The notes under the pieces: model-generated | Databases searched by the model: none | Told to the model about the DNA's origin: nothing | What the model saw: the letters and a program-made list of their open reading frames with translations, nothing else | Translations under genes and position numbers: made by a program | In this document: positions 7,375 through 54,954 of the stretch, piece by piece | Numbering within the stretch: position 1 is the stretch's first letter | How the letters are laid out: each line of letters starts with the position of its first letter | Origin: Scleroderma bovista | Taxonomy: Eukaryota > Basidiomycota > Agaricomycetes > Boletales > Sclerodermataceae | Direction of reading: 5' to 3' | DNA length: 54,954 nucleotides | Assembly: GCA_037178675.1 (NCBI GenBank) | Contig: JAYMGJ010000714.1 | Span: 1-54,954 of the forward strand

Positions 7375-9014
7375 ATGCCCGCAAAATCCGCCTTGTTTGA
7401 AGGCGAGAAAAACATAATCAAATCAACATTCCCAGCAGACAAAAACAAGATCCTGTATGCAACCCCTGCTCGCATCTACTTTGCGTACCCTCAGCAGGAC
7501 CGATGGTCGTACGGTGGACTCCAGGGTGCACTTGCATTCATAGAGGACCTGAACCAGCGTGCGTTCTTCCTCAAGTTGGTAGACATCTTTGGGAATGGCG
7601 GCGAAATATGGTCACATGAACTCTATGAGGGGTTTCAATACTACCAGGACCAGCCGCTCTTCCATTCATTTGCCGGTGATGTGAGTTGCTTCTAGTTGCA
7701 ACCTTGACTGTGACATGATGTGCCTAAACCATGTTTAACCCAGAAATGCATGATTGGCTTGGTCTTTTCTGACCAGAAAGAGGCTAAGTTGTTTCACAAG
7801 AAAGTGACGACACGAAAGGCTGGCAAAGGTGCGATATGAGCATGACATACTACACCATTCAGGATTTCACGATCTTTCCAGCCCCTAAGCTTGCACCGAC
7901 AAAGAAATCTGTTTCAAACGGCAAAGTCGACAAATCCATGATATCGGGCCCTGTGGAAGGCTCGTTCAAACATATAGGACACATGGGGTATGACCAAGAA
8001 AAAGGATTTGTTTCAGAGGGAGTGGATGTTTCCTGGGATCACCTTGCTTCCGACCTGGTATCGAAGGGTGTTCCTGCAAAAGAGGTTCATATAAACAAAG
8101 ATTGGATCCGGGAATGGTTCTTGACAAATGGACCGCAGTATCTTGCCCAGGATCCATCTGCGACCACGAAGAAGGCGCCGCCCCCACCCGTTCCCCGGCG
8201 AGCAGCGCATGGTCCTTCGGAAAGCGTAACCTCGGCCAATGGCGATGCTCAACCTGCACCAACGCCGCCAGTGAGGGCTACGCCTTTGAGACCGCCGAAT
8301 GCTCCGCCGCCATCACCTGTACAGAGCAGTTTAGTTACTCCTACCGTCCCGCCTCCTCCGCCTCCACCTACTCGGCCCGCCAGTGCTGCACCTGTACCAC
8401 CGCCTCCAGCACCACCTGCCCGACCTGCAAGTGCTGTACCTGCGCCACCGCCACCGCCACCACCTACTCGGCCCGCCAGTGCTGCACCTGCACCACCGCC
8501 TCCAGCACCACCTGTGCGTCCTGCGAATCCTCCACCTCCAACACGACCAAGCGTACCTCCGCCGCCGCTGCCGCCAACCAGCAGCAGCCCACCTCCGCCA
8601 CCCCCTCCGCCACCCCCTCCGCCACCCCCTCCGCCACCGCCGACCAGGAGCAGTCCTCCACCTCCACCACCACCACCATCGATGAATGGCCCTCCTCCCC
8701 CTCCTCCCCCTCCGCCGCAAGCTGCGGACGGTGGTTCTCCTCCTCCTCCGCCCGCCCTGCCCCCTGCTCAACCTGGTCGTGGTGATCTTCTAGCTTCCAT
8801 CCGCGGACAAGGCGTCCACAATCTGCGCAAAGCACCCAAACCTGACGCGAACGGAGTCCCGCCGCCGTCGCCGCCCTCGGCGCCTGCGGTGGAGGAGACA
8901 CGTTCAGGCGGCGGTGGTGATTTAACTGCTGCTCTCGCTGCTGCGCTTCTCCAGCGAAGCAAGAAGCTCGGAGACAGTGATGACGAGGATGACGACGACG
9001 AGGAGTGGGATTGA
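7375..9014 (+). CDS. wsp1: WASP homologue, Arp2/3 activator (WH1-CRIB-polyproline-WH2-acidic)
   Basis: Nucleation-promoting factor that binds G-actin and Arp2/3 to start branched actin at endocytic patches. Exons 7375-7680, 7744-7828 and 7882-9014 give 507 residues. Domains in order: WH1 at about 1-135 (RWSYGGLQGALAFIEDL, HELYEGFQYYQDQP, FHSFAGD), then a CRIB-like motif (ISGPVEGSFKHIGHMGYD) followed by a Cdc42/Rac-type region. A long proline-rich stretch with runs of up to about 18 Pro would bind SH3 proteins and profilin. Then come one WH2 motif (GRGDLLASIRGQG, LRKAP), an amphipathic central helix (DLTAALAAALLQRSKKLG), and a terminal acidic tail ending DDEEWD with the conserved tryptophan. 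The acceptor at 7881 was chosen over the earlier CAG because it alone keeps the frame. The proline tract is encoded by near-perfect CCACCCCCTCCG repeats, so its length may vary between strains. Confidence 0.95.
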
Positions 9015-16111: not shown

Positions 16112-18778
16112 TCATTCCTCTTCGGTCAGAGGCATGGCTTTAAAACCGTTTCCTCTCCACCCCGTATTCGTACTAATCATGTCTAAGCTTGGGCGTGGTT
16201 TGAAGCTTTCCCTCTTCATCCTGCTGGATTTTTGCTGGCTCGATTGTCGTAACACCCTGGGACCTAGTGAGCCCCCAGTGCATGATCTTGAGGTGCCGAC
16301 GTGTTGTGAACTCATACTTGAGTTCGAACTCCCGCTTCTGCCCGAAGTACTGGAAGTTGCGCGCCGCAATGTCGACGGAGCACGACCCCAGCCCAGCGCT
16401 GCATATCCTTGCAAATGCGTGGTAGATTGGGGCATAGGGGGTGCTTGGGCGACGTTCGGAGGCGCACCTCGACTTGTTGACCGTGTTGTACGACCTTTCG
16501 CTGGTGAGGTGCTTCGAGTGGGTATTTGCGAACTACCATCTACCAGTCGTTGCCGCTTGTTCGTCCCTCGGCTTTGCGACATGGATGAACCTGGTCGAAC
16601 AGCGGGTGTCACGGTGCCCGCTGGCGGTTGATGGGACTTTCCAGGAACATATCCAGGAACATATCCAGCCTTCCCTGATCCACTCGGTGCCGCGCTGGTA
16701 GATTTGGGACCTTGAATAGTGTCCTTGTTCATGGCCTGTACGGAATACTGCGAAACGGGTGCTTTCTTCTTGTTCTCCTGTTCGTTTGCTGAAACATTCT
16801 CCATGAGAATGTGGAGAATGCTTTCTCCGTGAACGAGGAATGGCCCCCCATGTTTTTGTTCCCAAGTCGGAAGCGACGACAGTAGTTGTTGTTCAAGCTG
16901 TAATGCAATGGTGAGTACCAATCAACACTATCCACAGATGAAATGATGCCAACCTTCGGCTTTTCTTTTCCAACCCGCTTTCTCATCTTCTCTTCCCTCA
17001 GTAGCCTACCGGGATCCCTCCCACCACCTCTACCGAGGAGTCTTGTTTGGTCACCAGCGGCTCGCTCCAGCTCCTTCTCTTCCTCGCATATTTCAAAATA
17101 TTTACGTATCATTGTCAGGAATGGGGTCTTCAGTCGAACCTCCGCCTTGAGCCGTACAATTTCATGCTCATGTTGACTTAACAGATCTTCCGTGTGTTCA
17201 TCTATTACCCTCATCGGTAAATCAAGAGTAGATCCATGAAAGACGCAATTACCATCAATGTAAGCGGCAAACTCGGCCCTCTCTTCTTCGCCGGTCATGA
17301 GTTCATCCCACAATGATTGAATCTCCATCCGAGCATTAGCAATAAACTCGCCCATCCGCTCGCGTTTGAGATCTATCATGCGTTCGAGCTCTTCTTCATA
17401 AGCTTGTATCACTTGGGGAGTTGTTCCGCGATTAGCCTGTGCTGGGGCGTGAGGTTGATAATAACCTGGGAACAACAACGAACAAACCTCGACAAATCCA
17501 TCCATTGCTTCATCATCTACGCCCATGCGTTTCCAAAGGGCCTCCAGTTGGTCATACATAGCTTGAATATGTGTTTCCCGACGTCTCTTGGTCTCCTCTA
17601 AGTCCATGCATAACTTCTCTGCCCAAATCAATATTCCCTGGGTTGGTTCAACGCCGAAGGACCCTAGAAGTGTTGCAGGAACGGGATCCGAAGGTGCGGA
17701 ATCAAGTAACTGGACGAACCGAGAGAGCGTTCTATGATACTCGCGTACTGGATCAGTGCTAAGTTCGGAAAGTGACATAGGAGTAACAGGTGGTGGTGAT
17801 GAAGCGGGGTAAAGAAGTCCACTATCGGGTTTACTTTGTGACAGAGGGGTGGGTGTGCCCAGTCCAATTGTCGAAGTCAAGAATGGATCGGCATTGGTAC
17901 CATTGGTAGTAGAGCGCACGCCGCACGAAGAGGAGGGGCGGGTAAGAGGAAACGATGGAACGGCGAGGGTCGAAGAAGATGCAACTGGTCCTGGAGGTGT
18001 GTCACTGTAATCTGGTGGGTCCATGCCTAGTTCTGTGTACAGCCAGTCAATCTGGATAAATACGTCACCCAGCTGCGTTAGACGTTTCGTCTGTGGGGTG
18101 ATGCTAAGCATGACTCATGGATTGGGGAATGAGGCTTACCACTTCGCCTTTACCTCTTACAAGTTCTTTCTCGAGCTTAGAAAAACGCTCTGGCATGACG
18201 TCACGAAGAGCTTTCGCATCATCTGGGCATTCATCTGGCGCTAAACAAGACTGTAGGATATCTGCAGGAAAGTAAGTTGCCCCCAAGGTTCGCGACAACA
18301 CAGTGAGGCGAGTGATGAGCGTTGTTAATTGCTCGAGTTTCGTATGATAAACCTTAACGGTGAAGATCAGGAAGACGATATCAAAGTAAATAAAGCTTGC
18401 AACACCCACCTGTCGTAGTTTTTCTTGATATTCTGTGGCCCGTTCGTACCGTCGAGGAAGTATCTTTTCAGATTTGATGTCATTAAGTGACCCTGCGACT
18501 TTAGCATGTGTTCCAAGTGCTTTCGAGTATCGCGAACACCCCATTTCCACCTCTTTACATTTGGCCTCCCATTCTTCCACCTGTTTCATCCTCATTTCGA
18601 TCTGAGACTCGACAGCACGAGTTAGGGTGTGTTGTAGGGTTTGAAGTTCATCTTCGAGTGCTGTTGCTGGCAGGCCAAGCTGGGCGTGCAAAGTTGGTAG
18701 AAGTTGAGTCTGTGCATTCAAGTGAGTGTGTAGAGCAGATAATAGCGTGCTCAGCGTGAGAGACGACGGCGAGGCCAT
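16112..18778 (-). CDS. ase1: Ase1/PRC1/MAP65 microtubule-bundling protein
   Basis: Crosslinks antiparallel microtubules at the spindle midzone and in interphase arrays. Exons 18778-18410, 18352-18140, 18090-16954 and 16897-16112 total 2505 nt and give 834 residues. Residues 1-190 are long helices and coiled coil (LHTHLNAQTQLLPTLHAQLG, EDELQTLQHTLTRAVE). The middle carries the conserved microtubule-binding spectrin-like segment (RMIDLKRERMGEFIANARME, QSLWDELMTGEEER). It is followed by LEQQLLSSLPTWEQKHGGPF and FLVHGES, the family's end-of-core signature. The last 200 residues are basic, Ser/Pro-rich and disordered, with SP sites (RSTSPAKGR) that could be Cdk targets as in yeast Ase1. The insert between about 205 and 290 is Pro/Ser-rich, so the protein is somewhat longer than yeast Ase1. 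The 5' end faces the divergent paralogue pair. Confidence 0.9.
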
Positions 18779-37575: not shown

Positions 37576-38380
37576 ATGGCAACGTCGTTCATGCAAAAAA
37601 CCGGCATCAAGCTGTTCGCCAAGCACATTGAGCAGTATACCCCTCAAGACCCAATGTACGAAGAGTACGCGGACGAACGGGGGAGGAAGAAACGCAGAAA
37701 GGTACGTCTGGTCACTACACTGCCTACTCTGCTCACTCACGTCTTTAAAGCGTGCAGTCCCCCCTGGACTATCCCAGCGGGATGCCAAGATCTTGAAATC
37801 CGTCCAACGTCGGGCGCACTATCTGGACAAAAGCTTCTCCCTCTGCGGCCTTCATTTCGGGTGGACAGTTCTGATTGGGTTGATCCCCGGAATCGGCGAC
37901 TTCGCTGACTTCCTCCTTTCTTACTACCTCGTCTTGCGCAAGGCCCGACAAGCGGAACTCCCAGCATGGCTAGTAAGGCGGATGCTATTGAACTGCATTG
38001 TTTCGGCTGTAGGCGGGGTCGTTCCTGTCGTGGGAGACGTTGTTATTGGTATTTTCAAGGCCAATTCAAGGAATGCAGTTCTGTTGGAAGAGTTTTTGAG
38101 GATTAGAGGCGAGGAGTATCTGAGGATGCGGGCGGAGCCACAGGAAGGGAAGGGCGCGGGAGCCAGTGGGCAGAAGGCAATGTCGAAGAAGGATGTGGCT
38201 CAGGTGAAGCCGGGGGCAGGGATGGAGACACCAGCTGGCAAACCATCGACTTCAACTGCGACAACAGCAGCGAACCCTTCATCCTCCTTCCATCCTCTTG
38301 GTGGCAGCAAGAAGCAGAAGGCGAAAGAAGAGAAGGGGAGATTTATCGAAAATATACCCGACTCTATGGCGAAGAAGTAA
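37576..38380 (+). CDS. DUF4112 membrane protein
   Basis: Exons 37576-37701 and 37751-38380 give 251 residues. The DUF4112 core runs from about 60 to 160: RAHYLDKSFSLCGLHFGWTV, LIGLIPGIGDFADFLLSYYL, RMLLNCIVSAVGGVVPVVGD, VVIGIFKANSRNAVLLEEFL. The two repeated GL(I/V)P-x-GD motifs are typical of this bacterial and fungal family and lie in short hydrophobic segments, so membrane association is likely. The function of the family is unknown. The N-terminus is hydrophilic and basic (GRKKRRK), and the C-terminal 85 residues are Lys/Ser/Ala-rich and probably disordered, as in other fungal members. The start has a purine at -3, and the intron (49 nt) follows the RRK. Confidence 0.9.
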
Positions 38381-42755: not shown

Positions 42756-44180
42756 CTACAGCTGAGACAATTCCTCGTCAAAGAATATCCCAGTCAATGG
42801 TGTGCCATCATCACGGATGACTCCGCGATGCATGCCGCTATAGTAGTTGGGTCCGAGGTGCATTGACACTGTCTCCAATGTCAGTGCTCGTGTATTTCTC
42901 ACTCAACATCATACACACCGTTCCCCTTCCTGTCAAGTGCAATGACACCACCACACCCCTCAGCCTTCGTTATGTCAGCGAGAACCTTCCGAATGGCCTT
43001 GTCCAGGGGTTCTCTCAGGAACTGCATGCGACGTGCGATTGTTGAAGCGGTGTTCTGCCGAATGAAATACTGAAATAACAACAACGCAGTATTAATGATC
43101 TGCCCTCAATAAAATGGCGATATCACATACATCACCGTCACCAGTTGCTGAAATGCCAACACCTTGAATACTGCTCTTCTTCTTGAGCAGACCACGGATC
43201 TTTCCGAACAAGCCCCGCGTCTGCTTCCATTCCTCTGCCCAAAGCCCACAACCCATGGTGGCCGTGTCGCCTATACGACCAGGAAGCTTATTCGTGCGGC
43301 CACCTGTAGAAGTGAGGGAAGCTACGCAACCTCGAATGTCAAGTGCGACAGCACCGACTGTACCCAACGACATGAAATCAGGGTCCATTTTCTCTGCCTC
43401 TTCCTTATATCCGGGGTCCGAGTCTAAGGATTTGCGTCCATCCCAACGTGCATCAGGTTCTGAGGAAATTCCAATAGGCTGCTCAGGTAAGCCAAGTCCC
43501 TTGCGATGCGAATTCCACTTTGCTTCGGTCCAGAAATAGGATGAATCAACAGTAGGTATCCCCAAAGCCTCCGAACCGATATCTTCTGCTGTTGCGCCAG
43601 TAATCTTTGGGTGAGGGACGAGGTCTGGATTGAGATAAATGGCACGGGCAAGTTGAGAAGGGTTGCGGGTGGACGTGAGGAGGGCAAGAGAGGTTCCTCG
43701 GCGGGCTGCAGGAATGGTTGGATGAGTCGAGGGGGGCTTTGACAGCATAATGGACGCCTCCAGTTCATTCTAGGGCGAGTGTTCAGTATGTACATATAAC
43801 AGGCATAGATTGCTCGCCATACCTTGCCACGCGCGTTGAAAACTGCACCTTTTCCTGCATTAAACAGGGGACAGTCTAAGGGATAAACATGAGCCAAAAA
43901 ACATCCCAGCATGAAGACGAAACCTACCCTCAAGGACAGAAATAGCTGCCACGACCGCGTCCATGGCTTCACCCCCATCCTTTAGTACCTCATAGCCAGC
44001 CTTGAGAGCTTCGTCGAGGGCAGACCTGTACGACACTTGCTTTTCTAGTGTCATACCTTCCCGAGTCAGCCTGGTAGCGCCTCCATGGATCACGAGCACG
44101 AATCCGTTGTCAGCCTTGGACACGCGTCGATTCCAGCGACGAAAGGCACTGCTCCGAGCTCCCAATTCCTTTGAACCCAT
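42756..44180 (-). CDS. Isoaspartyl peptidase / L-asparaginase, Ntn-hydrolase (type 2)
   Basis: Exons 44180-43928, 43875-43823, 43769-43131, 43069-42917 and 42872-42756 total 1215 nt and give 404 residues. The precursor would cut itself before Thr239 in FMSLGTVGAVALD to make alpha and beta chains with the Thr as nucleophile. Substrates in this family are beta-aspartyl dipeptides, asparagine or glycosyl-asparagine. Other marks are FVLVIHGGATRL, DGGEAMDAVVAAISVLED, LFNAGKGAVFNARGK, and in the beta chain LTSTGGRTNKLPGRIGDTAT and MGCGLWA. The linker before Thr is about 80 residues longer than in plant or human enzymes, as in other fungal members. The last donor, GT at 42916, joined to an acceptor at 42873 was chosen because it keeps the frame into YSGMHRGVIRDDG. 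No signal peptide, so cytosolic. Confidence 0.92.
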
Positions 44181-50502: not shown

Positions 50503-52242
50503 TTTCTTCCTCTGAGAGTTGCTCCTGGCTATGGTTTTGAAACTCGTGAGGAGACGCCCAGAGTCAGGGCCAAGCGACACCATGTGTTGACCTGAGTGAG
50601 ACACGTATGACACACTGTTCCCATTGGCTGACCGTTCCGTCGGGTGTGTGCTGTGACTGGAAACATTGTCGCCAGCGCGACGGTGTCCACCACATCCATC
50701 TCCACCTCCACTGCAGACTGGTCCCCCGAACACCGAATACCCACTTGGCAGCGACTGCGCCGGTCTGTGTCCGTTCCCGGCCGACTTGTGTGCGTGGTCG
50801 TCGGCCTGCAAAGAGGAATGGTTGTACCGTAGGTCGACTCCGGATCGCACGCGGCTCGACAAGAGGAGTGTCTTTGTGTGTGCGCTTGAGCTACTGCAGC
50901 CACTCGACGTCCGTTCGAGGACCAGTGGCCACTGGGACGGGTGCCAGTGCCATATGTCGTGGACATGGTCGTCCTGCGATGGCACCGTCGACGAGGGGGA
51001 CAAGGCATCCCATTTGGCGGCGTGGGATGCCGAGAATAGGGGCATTGAAGTCGAGCAGAGGCAAAGGTTCTCTCCTGCAACGTGTCTCCCCCGTCAGACA
51101 CGAGGACGGGCGCGGCTACTTCCAGCTTTGTGGCGCCCCGAGAAAACACCAGGTTCTTCCCTGTACGATACTCGACTCGCACACGAATGCCTTACAGGTA
51201 TATGCTTATCTGCGCCTAGAATGGGATCGACTCTCCCGTCCGATGCAATCTCGGGCGATTACGACACCAGGCGCACGATCCCGAGGTGTTAGTGGATATT
51301 CAGTTGGCCCGAGACATGCTAGGAATTTCCCCGCAGAGACAGCAAGGATGCTCACAATCGCTCTCTGCCGTTCAACCGTCGAATTATCGGATCACGTGGT
51401 ACACAGCGGTTGTGGATGCCGCATGGAAGATAACGATGCACGCAGGGCCATGTGCGCCGCTGTCATCGTCCATTGCTGCATTCGTGGGGAACAGGGACGC
51501 GCACATACGGTGATTATCTGATCGATTACTTCGCAGGGTCCATGCACAAATGTACAAATTTGACGCTCTCCGTGTACAGAGTCTTTCGAGAGCCAGGCTT
51601 CAATGTTCGCGGGTAGGGAAGACTGAGACGGATACCAGTAGTTTGGATCGCTGCGCATTCCGATGCCATCCTACTAATTGTGCTTTCACAAGTGGAATTT
51701 TACAATTGACGTGTCTTGGACCAAAGTACACCTATGATACTGCAGAACAGAAACCACGCCTAAACTACGAGCTGAAAAAGACAAAGACACCGAGGGAGTG
51801 TGTGGAGTCGAGTATAATGCATGTCCTTTAGCAATAGGATTTTTTCCCCCCATCTGCATGTCGAAAACACGACACAAAAAAAGATATGCATATGCGCTCG
51901 TCGTTGGTAGTGGTGGTGATGGGTGGTAAGTGACTACAGACTGAAAACGTAGGAAAAATAAATCAATGGAAATTCGACAACCAACAAACGCCAATCGTTT
52001 CTCTCGGATCCACTGATCCGCATTAAGCCCCATTGTATCTCGCTGTACTCGGATAAAAAAAAAAAGTCGTTTGGGTGGGTCCGGGAGGAGACCACGTATT
52101 TGGGTGGGGCATGGGGGGATGGGAAAGGTACGATAAAAAAGATCTGAGCGGGTGACTGTGGTGAGCGACGAGAAAGGACGAGTCAAGGGGCGGGTCAACT
52201 CACGAGAGGAGACAAGAGTGAAAACAGCGGCGGGCAAGGCCT
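50503..52242. other. Intergenic, no recognised gene
   Basis: Long frames overlap on both strands here (plus 50607-51521, minus 50529-51182), but neither shows a domain. They reflect GC-rich composition with few stop codons. The first part is the promoter of the EXPERA-like gene. From 51830 onward is the 3' flank of the small peptide gene. A run of 10 A lies at about 52056-52065. Confidence 0.45.
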
Positions 52243-52529
52243 TCACCAGCCCGGTGGGTTTCGCTTCCAGCCAGGTACTACCTCGTCGTCTCGTTTCCAG
52301 CCTGGATTCTGCACGGCAAGTCCAAAATGAGACGGTGGATGACCCGAGCAAGGAGAGGGGGTACTCACACCTGGCTCACGGTTCAACAGAGCATCAGCAT
52401 CTTGGGGCTGGATGGTTTGAGAGGATGAGATACACCTCAATAGACTGCAGCGAATGGACGACTGACCAGGGGGTGTGCGACAGCCGCGCAGGCGAGGACA
52501 AGGGCACACAACAGGCTCGAGAATTGCAT
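52243..52529 (-). CDS. Secreted peptide precursor with Lys-Arg-separated PGW repeats
   Basis: Three exons, 52529-52467, 52407-52369 and 52308-52243, give 55 residues, all joints phase 0. The N-terminus is a typical signal peptide (MQFSSLLCALVLACAAVAHP). A short pro-segment, LPQDADALLNREPG, follows and then the repeated part: NPGWKR, DDEVVPGWKR, NPPGW, stop. Each unit ends in PGW and the units are separated by Lys-Arg, the Kex2 site. Kex2 plus carboxypeptidase trimming would release peptides such as DDEVVPGW and NPPGW. The intron borders are strong (CTG|GTCAGT, GGT|GTGAGT) with CTCAAAC and CTCATTTT branch-like sites 15-30 nt before the acceptors. Layout matches Kex2-processed repeat proteins and alpha-factor-type precursors. 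No receptor or tailoring enzyme is adjacent. Alternative frames through the last exon are longer but have no coherent structure. Confidence 0.72.
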
Positions 52530-54954
52530 GGTGGCGTTGATGGGGGCTTGGTGGACGTAGCGTTGGGCGAAAGACGGATGCGACGACGGTCGAGAGGGAG
52601 GAGGGCTTTTAAGGCGACCAGGTGAAGTGAGGGGAAGGAATGTGAGAAGCGATGTTGTGTATTTATCGGCGGCACTGTTAAAAGTCCATGATGCCAGGTC
52701 ACTTTCTCATGTTCAACGACACTGTTCCTGGCTCGAGTGCCTGGCACGGCAATTCCATCCCCCAGTGCCGCATTTGGAAGGTGCCCGGGGGGCTCAGATC
52801 TTGCAACCCGGTGTCTTGTTCTGCCCACTGGCCCAGCGACTGTCCACCCAAGAGAACAACCCATGGGACACGGCGGAACAACAGAACTGCATGGGCACTG
52901 GGGACCCCGAAACACACCATTGCCCCCTTCGGAACTGCCATCTGACGTGGTCAAGAGGCACTGCAATATCAACCGTATTTCACTCTGTACCTGAAATGGA
53001 TTGCTGTGTCCCGCAGTGGACTAGCAACTTGCTGCGAGTTTCACCACTAGAGCCGCCGACGATGACCACAACGTCCTCTCTATGACCCCGCTGCTCTCTT
53101 CCTGCAGCACGTTCTCCGCCTTACCAGCACCACGCTCACTATCGACAATCTATGAGATGCACCTCCGTTAACAGTCTCGAAATTGAAGAAGCACTTACTT
53201 GCCAGATCAGGTATCTGGGTGTGCTGCGATTGGCTCGCGTGGGCCACGTCCATTCAGATGGGTAGTACTCTCTGTACGGACACAGAAGGGGGGGGGCGTC
53301 CTCCCATGGCAGGTCTGTTCCCTCTCCAAGGCCAGTCACATGCTCGTCTATCTAATTGGCAATCTGCCCTGGAGGGTAGCTGGCAACAGATTGTGACCTC
53401 CAAGGATCCTCGGCCAATATTGCTAACTCTATCGCCTTCCCTCCACGCTCCACCCCTGAAAATTGAATTCTATCCCTGCGTATGTGGTCTCATCGCTCCC
53501 ATGCAGCGGTTAAAATGGTCTCTTCGGAGCAACGCTGTAGATATCGCAACCACCGTGGACCGGCGGTATATCTAGGCACTTCCGAGTGGCTGGCAGATGC
53601 CTTACCCTCGCATCACGTCCATGTCCAAGGTAATACATTCTTCAAATACGGGGCCCAGGCTGCACCTCCCCCATCTCATGCATACCACACCCCTTCCAGG
53701 CACATCGATATGCATGTTTTTTTTTCTTTCTCATATGGGCACCCGTGACAAATTTATTCCATCCCCCCCCCCCCCTATCCCGTGACATCGCATGGATCTA
53801 CCCGTGCAAGCCTATCGCCGAATGGCGAGGCACGCTGGCGGCCACCGGGTCACCCGCAGCACCACACCACTGCCTAAACGATACAGTATGCCCCCCCCCC
53901 TCTCCCCCGTCGGCGTCGGACGCGTCACATCCTAAACGTGTCAGGCTAGATCACGTCGTCATGGCTCTATGTAGCGCTCCCTGTTGGGCATGGCCTGACG
54001 ACGACCGTGTGTGGGGCTGGGGCAACACGTTCTGGCGTTGGTGTATTACCTTGCTCGTCTTGTTTTTTTCCCCTCCCTGAGTCGTTATCGCCTGAGTGGT
54101 TCTCGCCGGCTGGTGCGTGGTCAGCGGACTGCTGACATTTCTGCCAATCGTGATGCCACGCCAGCCCTGTGCAGGCACTTATTTTTTTCCATTAAAGAGA
54201 GTGCCTGCCCTGTTCAGCGGGTATGGCCCCATTAGCATGTGCTGCCCCGCGTGAACCCGTGCGGATGGGTGTGTGGACGGCACGAGTTATATTCGGTAAT
54301 AATTATTCTTCATTGTTCGGGACGGTGGAATAATGTGTGAATAGATGGAGATTGTGCTCTATAGGTTGTTCGGTGTGAGGGAACTTGCCTAGGTCATTGC
54401 CGCTCAAAAGTCACTCCGTTGCGATTTATCTCTTGTGGTCAAATAGGTGCGGTGAGCTTCCCATCGACGTTTGTCTGGTGCTCTTTCACTCTTCAGTACT
54501 GTGCATTAAGGGGGGACAACGTTTGTGCGAACTGCCGAGCACACTGACGAGCCATCTGACACCCCCTGCAAGAATGAGTCCCTGTGGAGGGTTGGGTGTG
54601 ACACACATCCGCACAGTCCCGGCGCCACTGCCTAGCTGCACGCATGGTATGTAGCATTTCAAGACGGATAGCTTGACACAACTACATATCCGCTTGACAT
54701 TAATACGTCCCGTCTGACGCATGCCACGGGAATGCAGTGCAATGCAGTCCCATGTCCAGACTTTATTGGGGCTTATCCAGCACACCCTTGAGAATGGGGT
54801 TTGATTCTGTGGAAGTAATATATGTTGCCAGCGAAATGCATAATGGAGCGTTGATGTCCGTCTATATATCTGCGAATGTTTTGCCCTGAATGGTCACGAA
54901 CGTGTAAATCACCGGTACGCTGACACCGGCGTGCAGTTCGCTGGCTCAAACGTT
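52530..54954. other. 2.4-kb region to the right edge, no recognised gene
   Basis: Begins with the promoter of the peptide gene. Frames such as 52627-53085 and 53183-53575 (plus) lack motifs. Several homopolymer runs are present: poly-C at about 53762-53775 and 53890-53899, poly-T at about 53715-53724 and 54065-54071. Nothing identifiable reaches the right edge. Confidence 0.45.
52606..52612 (-). promoter_or_regulatory. TATA-like element of the peptide gene
   Basis: On the minus strand, CCTTAAAAGCCC lies about 80 nt upstream of the ATG at 52529, a usual distance for a fungal TATA box given a short leader. Assigned by position and sequence only. Confidence 0.4.

Follow-up and report, generated by a model that had tools for sequence, protein, structure and literature searches.

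A predicted three-exon gene on the minus strand of the Scleroderma bovista contig JAYMGJ010000714.1 encodes a 55-residue protein. This protein probably belongs to the Kex2-processed repeat proteins (KEPs), as a small example, and would give rise to short linear peptides that end in a free C-terminal Trp. The gene is found at positions 52243-52529 of the window, that is, of the whole stretch of 54,954 nt that was analysed. A first-pass annotation of this DNA had proposed a precursor of the Kex2/Kex1 type, and this reading is supported by the anatomy of the precursor, its rarity in the genome, the synonymous-only differences between its units and the presence of a kexin-type gene in the same genome. 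It looks like a real precursor, small and orphan, and of a kind already known. The new features are an orphan gene with PGW cores and a product of just 55 residues, which lies under the thresholds of both large KEP surveys.

Gene model and predicted processing

The features of the locus are listed below.
52530-52680, minus strand: likely promoter and 5' leader, with ATAAATA, an ATG-free leader and a pyrimidine-rich stretch
52467-52529, minus strand: exon 1, 63 nt, start codon and predicted signal peptide MQFSSLLCALVLACAAVAHPL
52408-52466, minus strand: predicted intron 1, 59 nt, GT-AG (GTCAGT...CAG)
52369-52407, minus strand: exon 2, 39 nt, pro-segment PQDADALLNREPG
52309-52368, minus strand: predicted intron 2, 60 nt, GT-AG (GTGAGT...CAG)
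52243-52308, minus strand: exon 3, 66 nt, NPGW-KR-DDEVVPGW-KR-NPPGW-stop, with two dibasic sites

The annotated model of three minus-strand exons (63, 39 and 66 nt) and 55 residues proved exact when each exon and the reading frame were checked. Exon by exon, the spliced reading frame is MQFSSLLCALVLACAAVAHPL-PQDADALLNREPG-NPGWKRDDEVVPGWKRNPPGW, and the joined exons make up 168 nt, which code for the 55-residue protein MQFSSLLCALVLACAAVAHPLPQDADALLNREPGNPGWKRDDEVVPGWKRNPPGW and a stop. The three units ending in PGW, the first two followed by Lys-Arg, were likewise found as described, since exon 3 reads NPGW-KR-DDEVVPGW-KR-NPPGW-stop.

Splicing would occur at both predicted introns, as judged from their sequence. 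A single branch-like motif, CTCAT, is found in each of them, at a distance of 19 and 20 nt from the intron end. The donor of intron 1, GTCAGT, is other than the commonest donor form and counts against the model. Retention of intron 1 leads to a stop after 30 codons, so this intron needs to be removed and the link between leader and repeat depends on it. The repeat itself is independent of intron 2, which has 60 nt and no in-frame stop; its retention therefore yields a 75-residue form with 20 added residues and all three PGW units intact. Downstream of the stop codon, a GTGAGT...CACAG segment of 48 nt (52156-52203, minus strand), noted by eye, could be an intron of the 3' UTR.

The predicted signal peptide was judged from hydrophobicity, and its putative A-V-A cleavage site was read by eye. 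Among the 2098 ATG codons of the window, 1021 open a frame of 21 codons, and the precursor ATG alone is followed by so hydrophobic a 13-residue stretch. Its context, GCCACCATG, contains the full GCCACC, which is shared by three ATG codons of the window in all. The ATAAATA motif is located 137 nt upstream of the precursor ATG, and the closest upstream ATG starts 160 nt ahead of it.

The processing would follow the established KEP route through signal peptide, Kex2 and Kex1 (PMC9769878). Signal peptidase would cut after AVA, with removal of the leader in the ER, and the protease Kex2 would cleave behind every KR in the Golgi. Kex1 would then trim the K and R residues. The products would be the peptides DDEVVPGW and NPPGW, together with a first fragment that ends in NPGW and may be shortened to EPGNPGW through a cut after the single Arg. 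The calculated [M+H]+ values are 916.4047 for DDEVVPGW, 570.2671 for NPPGW, 756.3311 for EPGNPGW and 473.2143 for NPGW. Because either KR or the stop directly follows Trp, a free Trp carboxylate is predicted. The peptides would be secreted unmodified. A kexin-type gene is present on contig C98, with Peptidase_S8 and P-domain matches in adjoining frames, and the genome also contains S10 carboxypeptidase matches, which identify the family and do not single out Kex1 itself.

The reading frames, the repeat and its rarity are seen directly in the sequence, as are the kexin-like, S10 carboxypeptidase and DPP IV-type sequences of the genome; splicing, secretion, cleavage and the role of the peptides are inferred. 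The peptides would most likely be extracellular signals, directed at the fungus that makes them or at its biotic environment; signalling is favoured because most of the KEP peptides characterised so far have a part in biotic interactions (PMC9769878). Six KEP genes have, however, been knocked out in Coprinopsis with no phenotype apparent (PMC9769878), which was counted against such a role.

Chance occurrence, copies and relatives

The repeat was compared with chance by a generic pattern, set after the motif had been seen, of the same three residues ahead of two KR/RR sites and ahead of a stop. This pattern occurs once in the six frames of the window and in none of 400 dinucleotide-preserving shuffles. 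With two units, the pattern is seen twice in the window, one of these being the precursor locus, and 13 times across all 400 shuffles. The precursor units vary at synonymous third positions only (CCA/CCT/CCG and AAA/AAG). Among the 117 possible single changes 28 are synonymous, and three such changes would arise by chance with a probability of about 0.014.

The codon usage of the precursor is only weakly coding-like. Its score of 0.085 per codon is matched or exceeded by 9.2% of the ATG frames that stay open for 55 codons (348 in all), and the score of exon 1 is below zero. Five frames of the window served to build the codon model; three of them have Pfam support and two were taken by eye for glycyl-tRNA synthetase.

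The alternative that the locus is a chance frame, in which unexpressed GC-rich intergenic DNA spells a leader and a repeat by accident, is unlikely. It draws on the weak codon score, on the many overlapping long frames in the surrounding 48-55 kb, and on the failure to find protein relatives. Pfam gave no match either for the seven long open frames in and near the locus (47.7-53.0 kb) or for the 55-residue protein. However, the repeat arises in none of the 400 shuffles, and the top leader of the 1021 ATG codons, in full GCCACC context, lies 158 nt upstream of the repeat exon, into which it continues in frame across two GT-AG introns. These two observations make an origin by chance unlikely, and the synonymous-only variation between units also speaks against it.

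A search of all 51.8 Mb of the genome with the DNA pattern for PGWK[R/S]...PGW hit only the precursor locus, in two overlapping matches, compared with none for the reversed control. The looser PxWK[R/S]...PxWK[R/S] gives one match, again the precursor locus, and none in the control. These sister-precursor searches covered PGW, PxW and W cores before K[R/S]. Three WK[R/S] units gave no match in the genome, and two such units gave 44 matches against 34 in the reversed control, which is near the chance level. A candidate at C281:171846 (L034), reading GWKRDGNGWKR, was dropped, as it is located inside a longer open frame of another phase in a repetitive, coding-like region. The identical 29-base stretch for GWKRDGNGWKR was also seen at C459:40766 (L046), and the remaining 42 matches were assessed on the matched sequence alone. 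Two weak matches on C739 and C380 (E-values of 0.21 and 2.49) were not taken as paralogues. No convincing second copy of the precursor was found in the same genome.

Comparison of the 55-residue protein with a protein database gave no candidate with three shared words, in a search that had no short-KEP positive control. A search with an alignment of a 121-residue open frame, included so that longer gene models could match, and the two spliced forms gave 589 candidates and none at E-values up to 10. Scleroderma citrinum, Astraeus and Pisolithus are all represented by proteins in the same database. Rfam and tRNA scans of the window found nothing.

Comparison with KEPs, pheromones and other secreted peptides

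The first-pass annotation could not assign the PGW-ending cores to a named class, but mass spectrometry had already revealed Trp-ending KEP peptides in Coprinopsis, Lentinula and Pleurotus (PMC9769878). GPPAPSW and DDDPEGPPAPSW were found in Coprinopsis culture fluid, SGTGEASAADW in shiitake and SGVAADW in oyster mushrooms, while production of a Coprinopsis KEP in Pichia yielded QMRPPSW and QYKAPSW (PMC9769878). BLAST searches revealed many further basidiomycete KEPs with a C-terminal Trp (PMC9769878). The detected peptide set from protein 497993 does not end in Trp, so that this ending is common and not general (PMC9769878).

The precursor resembles C. cinerea 490115 and 447393, L. edodes 2599, P. 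ostreatus 1091723 and P. eryngii 1439342 in its predicted secretion, its dibasic Kex2 sites and its predicted Trp-ending peptides (PMC9769878). In the Coprinopsis peptides QYKAPSW and GPPAPSW a Pro is found close before Trp, as in PGW, and DDDPEGPPAPSW and DDEVVPGW are alike in their acidic start (PMC9769878). The proteins also differ. The precursor has PGW, while the Trp-ending Agaricomycete KEPs have PSW or ADW, and the likeness described here is one of build and of peptides. The precursor has only three unequal units within its 55 residues and no repeated Ste13 dipeptides.

Under the general definition of a KEP, an N-terminal signal peptide is required, for which the precursor has its hydrophobic leader as a candidate. 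Similar short sequences are also delimited by dibasic sites, and the precursor has PGW before KR, KR and the stop. The formal rules are stricter. As given in the accessible part of each paper, Le Marquer 2019 asks for at least four fragments (PMC6339444), and Umemura 2020 for at least three tandem repeats of at least eight residues between Kex2 sites (PMC7329392). The precursor has three fragments of 20, 8 and 5 residues, and its units after the first site have 8 and 5 residues, so that by these rules, as there stated, it would not have been counted in either survey. Vogt 2022 requires a signal sequence, at least two sites and one fragment similar to at least two others; of these points, the two sites and a shared PGW are seen in the precursor. 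The precursor works like a KEP in its build, yet it falls outside two of the three formal rules. The presence of only two dibasic sites and of three units, one of them of five residues, was counted against the KEP reading. None of the main texts of PMC9769878, PMC7329392 and PMC6339444 contains the string PGW, and in the portion of the full-text literature covered the string PGWKR occurs in one paper, on gold nanoparticles.

It is quite improbable that the protein is an alpha-pheromone-like precursor, which would need Ste13 trimming and a Ste2-type receptor, although its Kex2 steps overlap with those of the KEP reading. Like the ascomycete alpha-pheromone precursors, it has a signal peptide (here predicted), Kex2/Kex1 sites and short cores. 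The core of the ascomycete alpha-pheromones differs from the PGW cores. X-Pro dipeptides are found in two places, as NP behind the last KR and as EP behind the single Arg, and DPPIV_N matches are present in the genome on contig C169. However, the repeated X-Ala or X-Pro spacer that is the Ste13 signature after Kex2 sites is lacking, as the core after the first KR begins with DD-EV and the second site is followed by a single NP. The Ste2 search of the genome was without a match, and its control also matched nowhere. The lineage and the mating system differ as well. A CAAX box at the C-terminus is the mark of the basidiomycete a-type mating pheromones; the precursor ends in NPPGW and has no such box, so it is not an a-type pheromone. 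The mating pheromones of basidiomycetes are of the prenylated a-type (PMC9769878). STE3 receptor matches are located on contigs C472 and C206 and none at the precursor locus. Those at C472:70180-82018 are clustered on both strands, and this is likely a pheromone-receptor locus.

Later modification at Trp had also been suggested, and it found no support here. A cyclic product of the dikaritin type, made with UstYa and with Trp as the modified residue, is very unlikely. A signal peptide followed by Kex2-spaced cores is common to the dikaritins (PMC9769878), and the precursor shares this design with those of the RiPPs ustiloxin and phomopsin, but its cores have no Tyr. A linked UstYa gene was not found on the precursor contig up to its end at 54954, and the location of the sole UstYa (DUF3328) match reported in the genome on another contig, C346, makes such a product improbable. 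The match itself, at C346:253465-253722, possibly represents a separate dikaritin-like locus. There is equally little to suggest that the Lys-Arg cuts only strip a pro-region to leave a single small secreted protein, or the 75-residue isoform that keeps intron 2, for although this intron is in frame and free of stops, just the repeat follows the first Kex2 site, with no Cys-rich or longer region.

The KEP reading may also be compared with Qsp1 of Cryptococcus neoformans, a secreted, Trp-ending basidiomycete peptide from a pro-peptide which, according to the available parts of the reports, ends in Pro-Trp (PMC5959073, PMC7537855). The serine protease Pqp1 is described there as maturing Qsp1 extracellularly, and the peptide depends on the transporter Opt1 for its action (PMC7537855). 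In these accounts it provides an example of a Trp-ending basidiomycete peptide that can be a self-signal and needs an oligopeptide transporter (PMC5959073, PMC7537855). The parallel is an analogy and not evidence of kinship. Qsp1 is not known to come from a Lys-Arg repeat precursor. The genome has 43 exon-level matches to OPT-family sequences, without a link to the precursor peptide, and genes of this family are expected in any fungus.

If the gene is real, Kex2-processed peptide precursors in a Boletales fungus can fall short of the size and repetitiveness that both large surveys required, and the published counts per genome may then be lower bounds. Pro-Gly-Trp would join the Trp endings of the Coprinopsis, Lentinula and Pleurotus peptides, and what reads a C-terminal Trp in mushrooms would become a concrete question. 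A bolder and improbable proposal is that mushrooms in general use a code of very short self-signals with a free C-terminal Trp, minimally encoded here by one short gene as the three variant ligands EPGNPGW, DDEVVPGW and NPPGW, with Opt-type uptake as for Qsp1. If this were true, the genes involved would have been missed, as they would fall below the survey cut-offs and the length limits of gene finders. All three peptides are short enough for direct synthesis and testing.

Neighbouring genes

The following genes were recognized elsewhere in the window.
7788-9011: gene for a PBD-domain, Pro-rich WASP-like protein
16732-18114: gene for a MAP65/Ase1 protein
43095-43769: gene for an asparaginase-2 protein

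An affinity with Scleroderma or a near relative, in the order Boletales, was deduced from a DUF4112 frame at positions 37577-38377. Its sequence identity is 98% with a JGI metagenome protein, 83% with Scleroderma citrinum, 73% with Pisolithus marmoratus and 69% with Astraeus odoratus, in alignments that span 65-77% of the query.
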